Origin: Oceaniradius stylonematis
GTDB lineage: Bacteria; Pseudomonadota; Alphaproteobacteria; Rhizobiales; Rhizobiaceae
Direction of reading: 5' to 3'
Length of the DNA: 64,000 bases
NCBI RefSeq assembly: GCF_003149475.2
Contig: NZ_QFWV02000008.1
Coordinates: 354,980 to 418,979 of the forward strand
Part shown: one piece after another, positions 16,856 to 21,916 of the stretch
How positions within the stretch are numbered: position 1 is the first letter of the stretch
How the letters are laid out: each line of letters opens with the position of its first letter
Notes under the pieces: generated by a model
The model's database searches: none
What the model saw: the letters and a program-made list of their open reading frames with translations, nothing else
Told to the model about the DNA's origin: nothing
Program-made: the position numbers and the translations under genes

Positions 16856-17392
16856 CTATGCGGTCCCACGATTGGGCTTGCCGCCGTCAGTTACGACCGG
16901 CGGGCGCTGCAGCAGGTCCTCGATGAAGAGCGAGACGAACTGCCCGCGATTGGAGACCCGCGCCTTGCCGTAGACGCTGGCAAGCTGCGCCCGCACGGTT
17001 CCCTCTGCCGCACCGCGCACCGCCGCGATCTCCGAGATGTCGAGGCCCTTGAGCGTCAACAGCGCCACGTCGGTCTCCGCCGGCGTCAGACGCCAGTCGC
17101 GAAACTGTGCCTCGATGAATTCGAAGAATGCGCCGGACGCGGCCAGGATCCCGGTTTCGGCATAGCGCAGCTGCTGCAGCATGCGGCGCATCTGCACGGC
17201 GCCGAACATCGTGCCAACCACCAATGCCACGGCCACGAGCGCCTCGAGCCCCGAATGCGCGGTCAGACCGCCCCATTGCAGGTCGCGCGAGACGTCGGCC
17301 ATGAAGAAGACGGCCGCCAACGCCTGTGTCGCGAGGACTGCCGCGAGTATCCTGACCTGCCAGCGCTTCGCTCCGACCCGTTCAAAGGTCAC
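16856..17392 (-). CDS. Membrane-anchored LuxR-type regulator
   Basis: A 178-residue protein with two predicted membrane helices (about 16-35 and 48-67) and a C-terminal LuxR/GerE helix-turn-helix (about 100-165: LTPAETDVALLTLKGLDISEIAAVRGAAEGTVRAQLASVYGKARVSNRGQFVSLF). There is no receiver or autoinducer domain, so any signal would come through the membrane part. It is the last gene of an operon after the PepSY and cytochrome b561 genes, 16 bases downstream, which suggests it responds to the state of those membrane partners. That link is inference. Confidence 0.82.
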   Translation of the reverse strand: MTFERVGAKRWQVRILAAVLATQALAAVFFMADVSRDLQWGGLTAHSGLEALVAVALVVGTMFGAVQMRRMLQQLRYAETGILAASGAFFEFIEAQFRDWRLTPAETDVALLTLKGLDISEIAAVRGAAEGTVRAQLASVYGKARVSNRGQFVSLFIEDLLQRPPVVTDGGKPNRGTA

Positions 17393-17408
17393 GTTGCGGT
17401 CCTTCGCG

Positions 17409-18005
17409 TTAAGACCTGCGGCCCGTGATCATCGCCGCAATCAGGTTCTGACCCGAAAGGCGCGACTCGGCGAACGCACCGATCACATGCAGGGCCGCCA
17501 GCAACAATAGCAGATTTGCCGCCGCCTCGTGCACCTCTTCGATCGCCTCACCGGCCTCGCTCTCGCCTCCCCACTCCTGTTCGACATGTTCGTAGCGCTC
17601 CTGATGCGTTTCCTGCGGAAACGGATCGCTTTGCATGAGGACGCCCGTCGCCGCCACGATCAGGAGCGTGGCCCACAGGGCATACACCATGAGCGCCCCG
17701 AGAGGATTGTGAGACCGGTGGCGGATGTGCCTGCCGGCGATCAGAGAGCGCACATGCGCGAGTGCACCACCGAGGCTCGGCGGAAACGCGCTGAAGCGCG
17801 CACTCTCTGTGCCGATGAGACCCCAGAACAGCCGCAGCAGGAGAAGTGCGAGCGCGCCATAGCCGATCCAGATGTGCGCAATGTCGCCGTCGCGGAGAAG
17901 GACGCCATTGATCAGCACGGCCAGTGCGATACCCCAGTGGGTCAGCCGGACGAGCGGGTCCCAGACCCGCACGCCGACCGATCGGCTTGCCAGGTCGCTC
18001 ATCAT
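17409..18005 (-). CDS. Cytochrome b561 / Ni-Fe hydrogenase-type cytochrome b
   Basis: A 198-residue di-heme membrane cytochrome with four hydrophobic segments. The first contains VWDPLVRLTHWGIALAV with its heme-ligand His; further candidate ligands are in the second segment (IAHIWIGYGALALLLLRLFWGLIG) and the last (NLLLLLAALHVIGA). A Glu-rich loop (about 140-170) interrupts before the last segment. Such proteins pass electrons between quinone and periplasmic partners. Two ATG codons in a row (18005 and 18002) overlap the PepSY stop; either could start it. Confidence 0.85.
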   Translation of the reverse strand: MMSDLASRSVGVRVWDPLVRLTHWGIALAVLINGVLLRDGDIAHIWIGYGALALLLLRLFWGLIGTESARFSAFPPSLGGALAHVRSLIAGRHIRHRSHNPLGALMVYALWATLLIVAATGVLMQSDPFPQETHQERYEHVEQEWGGESEAGEAIEEVHEAAANLLLLLAALHVIGAFAESRLSGQNLIAAMITGRRS

Positions 18006-18460
18006 CCCTCGGCCTCCACGCTGAGGACCTCGCCGGTTCCGGGGTGAACCTCGATCTCCCAAAGGCGGCCATCCTTCTTGGCGTAGACCTCGATTTTCCG
18101 CCTTTCGCGCTCGAAGGTCACGATCTCGTAGCCCTGGCCGGCCAGCATCGTGCGGACCTGTTCCTCGCTTACGCCGGGCAGCGGCGACGGCCCGCGGCGC
18201 GTCGTGCTTTCCACGCGGGTGATTTTGCCAGTCACCACATCGATGTAGACCTCGTGACGGACATCGCCCTTGACCGCGTAGACTTCAATCGTGTCGGCGC
18301 TCTTGTCGTAGCGGATGATCTCGAATCCGTTTTCGGACAGTTCGCCCGAAATGGCAGCGATGCCCGTTCCCAACCGGGTGCCGGGAACCAGATCGAGGGC
18401 ATAGGCCGCCCCGGACACAAGGGCGGCGGCAAGGGCCAGAAAAAGAGCTTGGTTCTTCAT
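18002..18460 (-). CDS. Exported protein with two PepSY repeats
   Basis: A 152-residue protein with a signal peptide (MKNQALFLALAAALVSGAAYA, about 1-21) and two PepSY repeats (about 35-75 and 95-150; ENGFEIIRYDKSADTIEVYAVKGDVRHEVYIDVVTGKI and the similar second copy). PepSY domains occur in periplasmic proteins next to b-type cytochromes and regulators. GAGGAG precedes the ATG. It heads the operon with the b561 and LuxR genes, overlapping the former. Confidence 0.87.
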   Translation of the reverse strand: MKNQALFLALAAALVSGAAYALDLVPGTRLGTGIAAISGELSENGFEIIRYDKSADTIEVYAVKGDVRHEVYIDVVTGKITRVESTTRRGPSPLPGVSEEQVRTMLAGQGYEIVTFERERRKIEVYAKKDGRLWEIEVHPGTGEVLSVEAEG

Positions 18461-18636
18461 GACAGTCTCCTCGATTGACGAGCAGGCGCCTTCAGCGACG
18501 CTGCTGGACTAAAGATGCGACCGTTGATCCCACGACTGCCATAGGTGATGGGCTTATGCGGCGTAATTAAGCGCCTGCTTATGAGCCATGATCCGCTTTG
18601 GTTCGCGGCCATCGCGTCGCGACCACTCACAGCCGA

Positions 18637-18885
18637 TCAGGAGAAGGGCGCGTCCCGCTTCACCGCCTTGAGCACATCGGGCACGGTCCAACTGACCAGA
18701 TCGTCCAGCCGGCGTCCGACCGCCTGCTTCCAGCCCGGCTTGGCCGCGATATCGGCTTGCACCGGCGTCTCGCCATAGCCTTTCGGGATCTGCAGATTGC
18801 CGCCTGACAGAAGCTTGGGTGTGTCGGCCAGGAGGCGAATGTAGCATGTGGGGCGGTGTCGATCATCAGCGCCGTCATCCGGCAC
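18637..18885 (-). pseudogene. Truncated DUF1801-family gene
   Basis: The recognisable part (about 60 residues) reads TPKLLSGGNLQIPKGYGETPVQ, then KPGWKQAVGRRLDDLVSWTVPDVLKAVKRDAPF. This is the start of a DUF1801 protein, which is normally about 130-150 residues. A TGA follows APFS, and none of the other frames carries the usual C-terminal half (GWFLSFHCF-type sequence). The 5' edge abuts repeat copy B at 18891. The gene therefore looks like a broken remnant. Confidence 0.65.
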
Positions 18886-18890
18886 GGCAC

Positions 18891-19053
18891 GCCTCCCCCT
18901 TGAGGGGAGGCACGAGAAGCAACCTTCGGGCTTGACCCGAAGGGCAGCTGATCGGGTGGGGGTGTCGATTGGAAACGACCAGCGGTTCTTACCCCCACCC
19001 GGCTCTGCCTCTCTGTGTTCGGCAATCGCCGACCTCCCCTCAAGGGGGAGGTT
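18891..19053. repeat. Intergenic palindromic repeat, copy B
   Basis: Ends GCCTCCCCCTTGAGGGGAGG (18891-18910) and GACCTCCCCTCAAGGGGGAGG (19031-19051) are inverted copies of each other. Inside, GGGTGGGGGT and ACCCCCACCCGGCTCTGCC pair across a spacer. The layout matches copies A (inverted) and C. Confidence 0.8.
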
Positions 19054-19534
19054 GGGCGGCCGTCCTTGAAAAACTTATCCAACCGTTTTCCGCCTCGCCT
19101 ACAATCCCTGCCACCGCGCCCATCGGAACGTCGGATGGCCACCACCTTCGGCGGGCGCGGCGGTGGCCTGCCGGGTGATGCGAGAGGTCGCATGGCTGGA
19201 TGCTGAATCCCCACGGCAGGGCGGAACGAAGGTGTGCGGCGTCCATCCGCGCCTGACCCCGGCCAGACCCGGCCGGCGGCCAGGATCGGACGGGGCCGGA
19301 GGATGGTCTCATCGCGTCGCGGGTCTGCGGCGGATGGAACCCATCCAAAGGCCACGGCAGGGCGCGAGCCTCGCGCCGGCGCCGCACATGACGATCACCG
19401 CAAGCCCGCCGGACGGGCGGTTTGGCGATCGCAACATACAAACTACGGATCGCGGCTCTCCAAACCGCCCGTTGTTCTGTTTCGGCAGCAAGCTCTCGAC
19501 TTCGAAAGGAAGTGCGGCGTCGATCATGCACGCC
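19054..19534. other. 481 bases with no recognisable gene, flanked by repeat copies B and C
   Basis: Several frames stay open because of high GC, but none gives a protein I recognise and none has a convincing ribosome site. The stretch holds a 13-bp direct repeat (CCACGGCAGGGCG at 19211-19223 and 19352-19364), a small inverted repeat (GGATGGAACCCATCC, 19332-19346) and the long hairpin at 19413-19472. It may be a decayed gene or a further repeat family. Confidence 0.5.
19413..19472. repeat. Long imperfect hairpin
   Basis: Perfect 12-bp arms (CGGGCGGTTTGG at 19414-19425 and CCAAACCGCCCG at 19460-19471, extended by an A-T pair) enclose an inner 5-bp stem (CGATC at 19426-19430, GATCG at 19448-19452). 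No T-run follows, so it is not a standard terminator. Confidence 0.7.
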
Positions 19535-19698
19535 CGCCTCCCCCTTGAGGGGGTGAGCCTGCGAACGGCGATTGGTCCAGCGAAGCCGGGCCAGAGCGGG
19601 TGGGGGTGGCAAATAAGCGCGAGGTGAGCCACGACCCCCACCCGGCTCTGTCTCGTTTACACTCGCCACTCGCCGACCTCCCCTCAAGGGGGAAGTGG
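19535..19698. repeat. Intergenic palindromic repeat, copy C
   Basis: Same orientation as copy B. Left end GCCTCCCCCTTGAGGGGG at 19536; right end GCCGACCTCCCCTCAAGG to about 19694; central GGGTGGGGGTGG and ACCCCCACCCGGCTCTG. It lies 90 bases before ychF, so transcription of that gene must start within or after it. Confidence 0.8.
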
Positions 19699-19788
19699 GT
19701 CGGCTTGTACATCGCACGTCCCGAACCCCTTGACCCCTCACCCCGCTTGCCCGAAAAGCCGGGCGACAGATGCGAAGGACCAATCCCC

Positions 19789-20941: not shown

Positions 20942-21151
20942 TCACGCCGCCTTGTCGCCGCGCGTGTTGATGCCGAGCAGTGAATAGAGCGCGCACCGCG
21001 ACATGATGCCCGTCGCCAGCATCACGACGCCGACCAGCGCGACAATCCAGCCCCATGCACCCAGTTCGACGAAGAAGAACAGGGCCAAAAGAACGGCACC
21101 CGCCACAATGCGGATCATGCGGTCGGTGCTGCCAACATTTACGTCAAACAT
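20942..21151 (-). CDS. Small membrane protein, DUF2892/YgaP family
   Basis: A 69-residue inner-membrane protein with two hydrophobic segments (RIVAGAVLLALFFFVELGAWGWIVALVGVVMLATGI) and a short Cys-containing tail (SRCALYSLLG). The N-terminus NVGSTDRMIR is the family signature. I start at the ATG at 21151, with GGAGG five bases before it; a longer frame to 21235 has no support. In other bacteria this domain is found with rhodanese or sulfur-stress genes. An 18-bp inverted repeat sits 20 bases upstream and a Crp/Fnr regulator is encoded just before it. Confidence 0.85.
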   Translation of the reverse strand: MFDVNVGSTDRMIRIVAGAVLLALFFFVELGAWGWIVALVGVVMLATGIMSRCALYSLLGINTRGDKAA

Positions 21152-21170
21152 CTTTGCCTCCAATGTCATT

Positions 21171-21188
21171 GACCGGATCATTCCGGTC
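21171..21188. promoter_or_regulatory. Inverted repeat, possible Crp/Fnr-type operator
   Basis: GACCGGATCATTCCGGTC: perfect 7-bp arms around a 4-base centre, 20 bases upstream of the DUF2892 start and 72 bases after the stop of the Crp/Fnr-type gene. The 7-4-7 layout fits a dimeric regulator, but the arms differ from the Fnr consensus TTGAT-N4-ATCAA. It could instead be a stem-loop in the leader. Confidence 0.45.
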
Positions 21189-21259
21189 CTGAAGATCGAG
21201 GATACACGGAAACGCCGACGAATGTCTGTGACCATGTCACCAAGAAGCGATGCGGCCGG

Positions 21260-21916
21260 TCATGTACCCGCGATCGCCGCCAGCCGTGCGCGGTCGCGGA
21301 TCAGGATCTCCTTGCGCCCGCCTTCCACGATGCCCTCGTCGGACAGCTTCTCGACATGGCGGGACACGACCTCGCGGGCGCTCCCGATCGCCGTCGCGAT
21401 CTCCGCGTGGGATGCCGCGGCCCTGCCGCCATCATCGGCATTGTCGAGCAGCCAGCGTGCCAGCCGGATTTCGATCTTCTGGAAGGCCACCATCTCCAAC
21501 AGCGCCGTCATCTCGCCGATCCGCTCGGCAAAAGCGCGAAAGACGAACTGCCGGAACCGGTCGGACCCGTCCATCAGCTCGCGAAAGGCCTTGAACGGCA
21601 CAATCGCGGCGACGACATCGGTGTCGGCAATCGCCTCGCCCGAATAGGGCTGGGCGCCAAGCAGCGCCAGTGTCGTCATCAGGCAGGTCTCTCCCGGCTC
21701 GATGGAATAAAGGCGCAGCTCGCGGCCTGTCCGGCTGTTGAGATAGACGTTGATCCGGCCGGACAGGACCAGGGCAAAGCCGCCGGGCGCTTCGCCGGGC
21801 CGGAACAAGATCGTGCCCTTGGGCACCAACCCGGGCGTCAGCCGGCCCAAGGCCTCCATGGTCGGCGCATCGAAGGCGGTTTCGAGTACGGTTCCCTTGA
21901 GCCAGTCAACGGCCAT
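21260..21916 (-). CDS. Crp/Fnr-family transcriptional regulator
   Basis: A 218-residue regulator with a cyclic-nucleotide-binding-type beta barrel (about 25-130, GTILFRPGEAPGGFALVLSGRINVYL) and a winged helix with recognition helix near SAREVVSRHVEKL (about 178-190). It lacks the Cys cluster of Fnr, so it is not an iron-sulfur oxygen sensor of that kind. One Cys is present in GETCLMTTLALLG, at a site seen in related sulfur and redox regulators. It overlaps the EamA gene by 11 bases and precedes the DUF2892 gene, its probable target. Confidence 0.88.
   Translation of the reverse strand: MAVDWLKGTVLETAFDAPTMEALGRLTPGLVPKGTILFRPGEAPGGFALVLSGRINVYLNSRTGRELRLYSIEPGETCLMTTLALLGAQPYSGEAIADTDVVAAIVPFKAFRELMDGSDRFRQFVFRAFAERIGEMTALLEMVAFQKIEIRLARWLLDNADDGGRAAASHAEIATAIGSAREVVSRHVEKLSDEGIVEGGRKEILIRDRARLAAIAGT

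Follow-up and report, generated by a model that had tools for sequence, protein, structure and literature searches.

In the window, a stretch of 64,000 nucleotides from Oceaniradius stylonematis, the minus strand carried a tight operon of three genes, encoding in order a PepSY protein, a b-type cytochrome (PF01292) and a LuxR-type regulator with a predicted membrane anchor (hereafter TM-LuxR; Table 1). The ATG of the cytochrome gene was overlapped by the PepSY stop codon, and the TM-LuxR gene started with GTG less than 20 bases from the cytochrome stop, in line with the overlapping or nearly abutting arrangement described in an earlier note on this DNA. The host genome contained one copy each of the TM-LuxR and cytochrome genes, and an Rfam scan of the region found no RNA element.

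Table 1. Features of the PepSY-cytochrome-TM-LuxR operon and its upstream region (positions in the window)
Feature	Position	Strand	Basis
Proposed TM-LuxR operator TAAGCAGGCGCTTA, palindrome TAAGC-N4-GCTTA	18568..18581	-	Recurrence upstream of relatives
Third half-site TAAGC, 25 bases after palindrome start	18552..18556	-	Spacing conserved
CTATGG element, tentative candidate -10	18539..18544	-	C[AT]ATGG in several relatives
PepSY protein, 152 aa, first gene	18002..18460	-	PF13670 E=1e-16, PF03413 E=9e-7
b-type cytochrome, 197 aa	17409..18002	-	PF01292 E=2.8e-23
TM-LuxR, predicted two-helix membrane-anchored LuxR-type regulator, 178 aa	16856..17392	-	GerE helix-turn-helix, family profile, AlphaFold2
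TM-LuxR predicted membrane helix 1, about residues 14-33	17294..17353	-	Hydropathy, column counts
TM-LuxR predicted membrane helix 2, about residues 48-66	17195..17251	-	Hydropathy, AlphaFold2 model
TM-LuxR LuxR/GerE helix-turn-helix, about residues 102-161	16910..17089	-	GerE match, model, fold comparison

The PepSY protein possessed a signal-like N-terminus followed by two PepSY repeats. Used as a tblastn query against plasmids it returned no close homologues, yet annotated PepSY genes occupied the same position there, which indicates that this protein diverges fast. The cytochrome matched PF01292 (prokaryotic cytochrome b561 / Ni-hydrogenase b subunit) with 83 bits, against a gathering cut-off of 30.1, and on this similarity belongs with the quinone-linked b cytochromes of that family. 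It probably has four membrane helices, and the candidate haem-ligand histidines His22, 43, 98, 158 and 172 were invariant in its alignment. Its nearest solved relative was HyaC (4GD3; profile match E=1.5e-7), closer than the superoxide oxidase CybB (5OC0), whose profile match (E=0.018) was too weak for superoxide oxidase to be kept as a sure identity. No cysteine occurred in the PepSY protein or in TM-LuxR of the window, ruling out a thiol redox switch in either.

The GerE match of TM-LuxR (PF00196, residues 102-154) reached 21 bits, just under the Pfam cut-off of 23.5. The family profile matched the DNA-binding domains of VraR and DesR in the PDB, and a Foldseek search of the PDB with the AlphaFold2 model matched NarL/LuxR-type helix-turn-helix proteins, so that a C-terminal helix-turn-helix of GerE type was supported by profile and fold comparison despite the sub-cut-off Pfam score; no PDB structure matched the whole architecture. 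The model comprised a helix (residues 3-41), a long helix (48-99) and the helix-turn-helix (104-162), with a pLDDT of about 90 in the last and only about 50-70 in the membrane part. Hydropathy predicted two hydrophobic helices in TM-LuxR and, with few exceptions, in those relatives whose N-terminus is complete, and the domain search yielded no sensor domain besides these helices and the helix-turn-helix, and no receiver domain. The regulator described earlier, with two membrane helices, a LuxR helix-turn-helix and no sensor domain, was thus recovered by prediction, profile and structural model, and it combines a DNA-binding domain and predicted membrane helices in one chain, the one-component pattern. 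Four basic residues preceded helix 1, three followed helix 2 and one lay in the short loop; because more of them flank the hairpin than lie in the loop, TM-LuxR fits a hairpin whose two ends face the cytoplasm. Within the TM-LuxR clade of the window, Q23 (mid helix 1), F29, F30, D33, D37 and E50 (at the predicted periplasmic end of helix 2) were invariant and H46 was present in 15 of 19 members. These hairpin residues were also retained in solo members without PepSY and cytochrome genes.

The nearest named family was NF047608 (LIC13292 family transcriptional regulator), of similar length, which matched 13 of the 13 aligned members; the match of TM-LuxR to it (55.6 bits) missed the cut-off of 200 and covered residues 70-161, leaving the N-terminal membrane part unmatched. 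CadC and ToxR are also helix-turn-helix proteins anchored in the inner membrane; they consist of a winged helix of OmpR type at the N-terminus, a single membrane helix and a domain in the periplasm, and ToxR has a small partner, ToxS, that acts in the periplasm. TM-LuxR is predicted to share the membrane anchoring but carries a C-terminal LuxR/GerE domain after a hairpin with a very short loop.

The PepSY start was preceded, at a distance of about 115 bases, by a 14-bp palindrome, TAAGC-N4-GCTTA, a candidate operator of the palindromic kind seen in the LuxR/GerE family. With at most one mismatch it was present upstream in 17 of 18 members of the window's clade (clade support 98), whether the first gene encoded PepSY, the cytochrome or a solo TM-LuxR; one member (L140) lacked it even at two mismatches. 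It was found in none of 22 kinase-type PepSY-cytochrome operons and none of 23 other cytochrome loci. A second type of site, TAAAC-N4-GTTTA, lay upstream of the genes of a PepSY-only clade whose regulators carry K134, and a site of either type was detected in 23 of the 64 TM-LuxR loci scanned, compared to 0.7 in shuffles. R134 of TM-LuxR paired with TAAGC sites (17) and K134 with exact TAAAC-N4-GTTTA sites (8), and among loci with an exact site there was no exception to this pairing, which rests on few independent evolutionary changes and offers a simple candidate specificity code.

In nearly all relatives the third half-site followed 25-26 bases on, and after it a C[AT]AT-type sequence; no match to the sigma-70 consensus promoter turned up upstream of the operon. 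The palindrome would then sit at about -43, the arrangement of class II activation by LuxR-type proteins, but the proximity of the third half-site to the candidate -10 could also fit repression of the PepSY promoter. The window's copy was the only exact site in the 3.58-Mb genome, and 12 further genomes contained 15 exact sites, 7 of them in cognate promoters. Judged by exact sites, a larger regulon was unsupported; the ten other one-mismatch sites of the genome lacked the third half-site and were fewer than those of a control pattern. With a seemingly single target and a defined 14-bp operator, what PepSY proteins at the envelope sense or tune becomes a question that one promoter reporter could address. 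At two loci (L112, 4024-5486; L141, 5007-6413), a solo TM-LuxR gene was accompanied by a divergent gene for a DUF347 membrane protein (PF03988, tested for L112), with the palindrome between or beside both, which suggests that DUF347 may be another TM-LuxR target.

Conservation of the linkage was surveyed with profiles derived from the window together with annotated loci on plasmids, and up to 5-6 kb were read on each side of 73 TM-LuxR genes. Directly upstream were PepSY and cytochrome genes in 17 loci, PepSY alone in 26, a cytochrome in 7 and neither in 23, the last class including distant branches (Cupriavidus, Pseudoalteromonas) that are not to be counted as the same system. PepSY was therefore upstream in 43 of 73 loci, with the cytochrome in between in 17 of these, and the linkage of the three genes, for which the earlier note had proposed comparative genomics, was far above chance. 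PepSY was the most constant partner, also where the cytochrome was absent. Two of the seven cytochrome-TM-LuxR loci without PepSY had a distant, diheme-linked cytochrome type, which leaves five with the usual type; four cytochrome-TM-LuxR operons without PepSY belonged to the window's clade. TM-LuxR without either partner was represented by L003, L112 and L141. The TM-LuxR tree clustered loci by context, with 13 label changes against a shuffled mean of 38.7.

The trio was identified in Thioclava sp. FTW29, Paracoccus fistulariae (p7465), Sulfitobacter sp. SK025, Ensifer adhaerens and Psychromarinibacter sediminicola; in Thioclava, Ensifer, Paracoccus and Sulfitobacter it was plasmid-borne with overlapping start and stop codons, and on the Paracoccus and Sulfitobacter plasmids a VIT-family transporter gene (PF01988) was the fourth gene. 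The 7,465-bp mobilisable plasmid of P. fistulariae had the PepSY-cytochrome-TM-LuxR-VIT cassette as its main cargo (L036, 2184-4303), and this four-gene version, carried by so small a mobilisable plasmid, suggests a metal or redox function that is portable. Other gene neighbourhoods were also observed, and some of the 23 loci with neither partner upstream belonged to small operons of another kind, with a diheme cytochrome c or a ferric-reductase-type flavoprotein. In three loci (L097, L111, L117), genes for a diheme cytochrome c (DHC; PF09626, as tested in L097) and for a long cytochrome b immediately preceded a gene of the TM-LuxR clade, which makes this a second kind of electron-transfer operon that includes this regulator family. 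In two others (L096, L098), TM-LuxR directly followed a ferric-reductase-like flavoprotein (PF01794, PF08022 and PF00175, tested for L096). One locus (L114, 3123-6562) contained two units facing each other, PepSY-PepSY-TM-LuxR and, on the opposite strand, PepSY-TM-LuxR.

Searches from the cytochrome side turned up the same PepSY-cytochrome pair together with genes for a response regulator and a HAMP histidine kinase. In Methylovirgula (pHY1), Sphingomonas (NIC1, with VIT) and Agrobacterium (pAtCFBP6625b), these two genes occupied the exact position of TM-LuxR, and in other cases they were divergent from the pair. Ferritin, VIT or katG genes adjoined the kinase-type operons in some loci. Among the PepSY-cytochrome loci read across 240 sampled genomes of the class, 16 had a kinase/response-regulator pair nearby, 7 had TM-LuxR, 4 had neither and none had both (hypergeometric P=3.7e-4 for the lack of co-occurrence). 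One of the seven (L108) had a non-adjacent kinase pair about 2 kb further downstream, and in the wider set two loci (L035, L139) had one a few kb off. In the phylogeny of the cytochromes, the 21 rows of PepSY type linked to TM-LuxR all fell into a single clade (support 99), whose sister held PepSY-cytochrome operons with a response regulator and histidine kinase. A single regulator exchange would be the simplest reading of this tree, its direction depending on the root; the kinase type surrounds the TM-LuxR type. TM-LuxR is thus placed by these comparisons as a putative one-component stand-in for a two-component system. Because a histidine kinase and response regulator accompany the pair more often than TM-LuxR does, TM-LuxR would be an exchangeable controller rather than an obligate electron acceptor. 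The loci constitute a natural experiment, with one PepSY-cytochrome output, two kinds of controller and the exchange placed on a tree.

In agreement with the earlier note, which knew of no described system of this composition, the literature searched contained no description of PepSY, a b cytochrome and a membrane LuxR regulator together. The composition appears to be new, and it fits best as a one-component variant of the modules that join PepSY to a two-component system. Such modules include Vibrio cholerae DbfQ-DbfR-DbfS and Pseudomonas aeruginosa PA2658/PA2659-BqsRS, and the PepSY protein DbfQ acts by binding the adjacent membrane kinase DbfS from the outside, a precedent for PepSY control of a sensor (PMC12714742). 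The operon resembles them in having a small periplasmic PepSY gene directly upstream of a membrane signal receiver with DNA-binding output. It differs in that a single TM-LuxR replaces the histidine kinase and response regulator, without a phosphorelay, and in that a b-type cytochrome is added; lacking kinase and response regulator, it is not a strict DbfQRS member. With the kinase-type PepSY-cytochrome operons it shares homologous genes in the same order, a regulator right after the cytochrome and, in some, a nearby VIT gene, whereas the regulator type and the operator differ. The tandem PepSY protein UipA binds uranium and iron according to work cited in PMC8963506.

The operon is therefore read, with rather more belief than doubt, as an autoregulated, single-target membrane one-component variant of the DbfQRS-like PepSY-kinase modules, in which the hairpin senses and PepSY tunes. 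TM-LuxR would be anchored in the inner membrane by its helical hairpin, with the N-terminus and helix-turn-helix in the cytoplasm, and a dimer would bind the palindrome upstream of PepSY and drive PepSY, the cytochrome and itself, most likely by activation. The hairpin is the likeliest sensor because its residues are invariant even in solo members without PepSY and cytochrome, and the cue would most likely be read at the periplasmic membrane face by D33, D37, E50 and usually H46. Periplasmic PepSY most likely tunes TM-LuxR from outside and so provides feedback; their contact is proposed by analogy with DbfQ and DbfS. The cytochrome would be the effector, a quinone-linked haem protein for redox or metal chemistry in the periplasm. 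The cue may be redox or metal in nature, and a metal or oxidative-stress role is weakly hinted at by the VIT, ferritin and katG neighbours, the hint being weak because VIT was seen near the plasmid copies only; the VIT gene of the host genome lies away from this operon.

It is unlikely, though worth serious consideration, that the hairpin senses a cue alone (for example Fe/Mn at the D33/D37/H46/E50 face, or membrane stress), with PepSY and the cytochrome as regulated output only and PepSY giving no feedback. Two of the solo members (L112, L141) retain both site and hairpin residues without either partner, operons of cytochrome and TM-LuxR without PepSY occur, and such a cue would fit the VIT gene in fourth place on two plasmids as well as the ferritin, VIT or katG genes beside kinase-type operons. 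Against this, PepSY accompanies TM-LuxR more constantly than any other gene, even where the cytochrome is missing, and in DbfQRS a PepSY protein has been proven to partner a membrane sensor (PMC12714742).

A relay of the kind proposed in the earlier note, with TM-LuxR gated through the cytochrome (and PepSY) by electrons or by the quinone/haem redox state, appears improbable. The regulator family often lies beside genes for cytochrome b, DHC with cytochrome b, or ferric reductase, the cytochrome histidines are retained, and within the window's clade Q23, halfway along the first membrane helix, does not vary. However, the cytochrome is absent from the 26 PepSY-TM-LuxR loci and the solo loci, and neither PepSY nor TM-LuxR has a cysteine. 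As originally stated, the relay was not supported, as TM-LuxR occurs without the cytochrome, without PepSY (5 loci) and alone, and without its partners keeps the membrane-helix residues and, in the window's clade, the DNA site. Since the PepSY-cytochrome pair occurs with kinases too, the cytochrome need not signal to TM-LuxR; this, its dispensability for the regulator family and the lack of cysteines make the relay not the best reading. Release of TM-LuxR as a dormant factor by regulated proteolysis, the anchor being a latch rather than a sensor, is very improbable: a long helix links the second membrane helix to the helix-turn-helix in the AlphaFold2 model, but hairpin conservation exceeds what a latch needs and, in a general reading of the loci, no linked protease stood out.

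Beyond the PepSY-tuned one-component operon favoured here, TM-LuxR might found a new proteobacterial class of membrane-held one-component regulators dedicated to operons for membrane electron transfer and metal handling, gated by PepSY at the periplasmic face and having displaced a two-component system in an operon that is conserved in other respects. This broader proposal is tentative and somewhat doubtful as a whole, including the operon types that it would unite (PepSY, cytochrome b, diheme cytochrome c, ferric reductase and VIT).

Elsewhere in the window, a segment rich in CCTCCCCTCAAGGGGGAGG palindromes was present in two copies about 644 bases apart (18885-19060 and 19532-19704) and looks like a dispersed intergenic repeat. 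On the minus strand at 20942-21916, a gene for a YgaP-like membrane protein lay beside that of a Crp-family regulator, a possible redox-linked pair.
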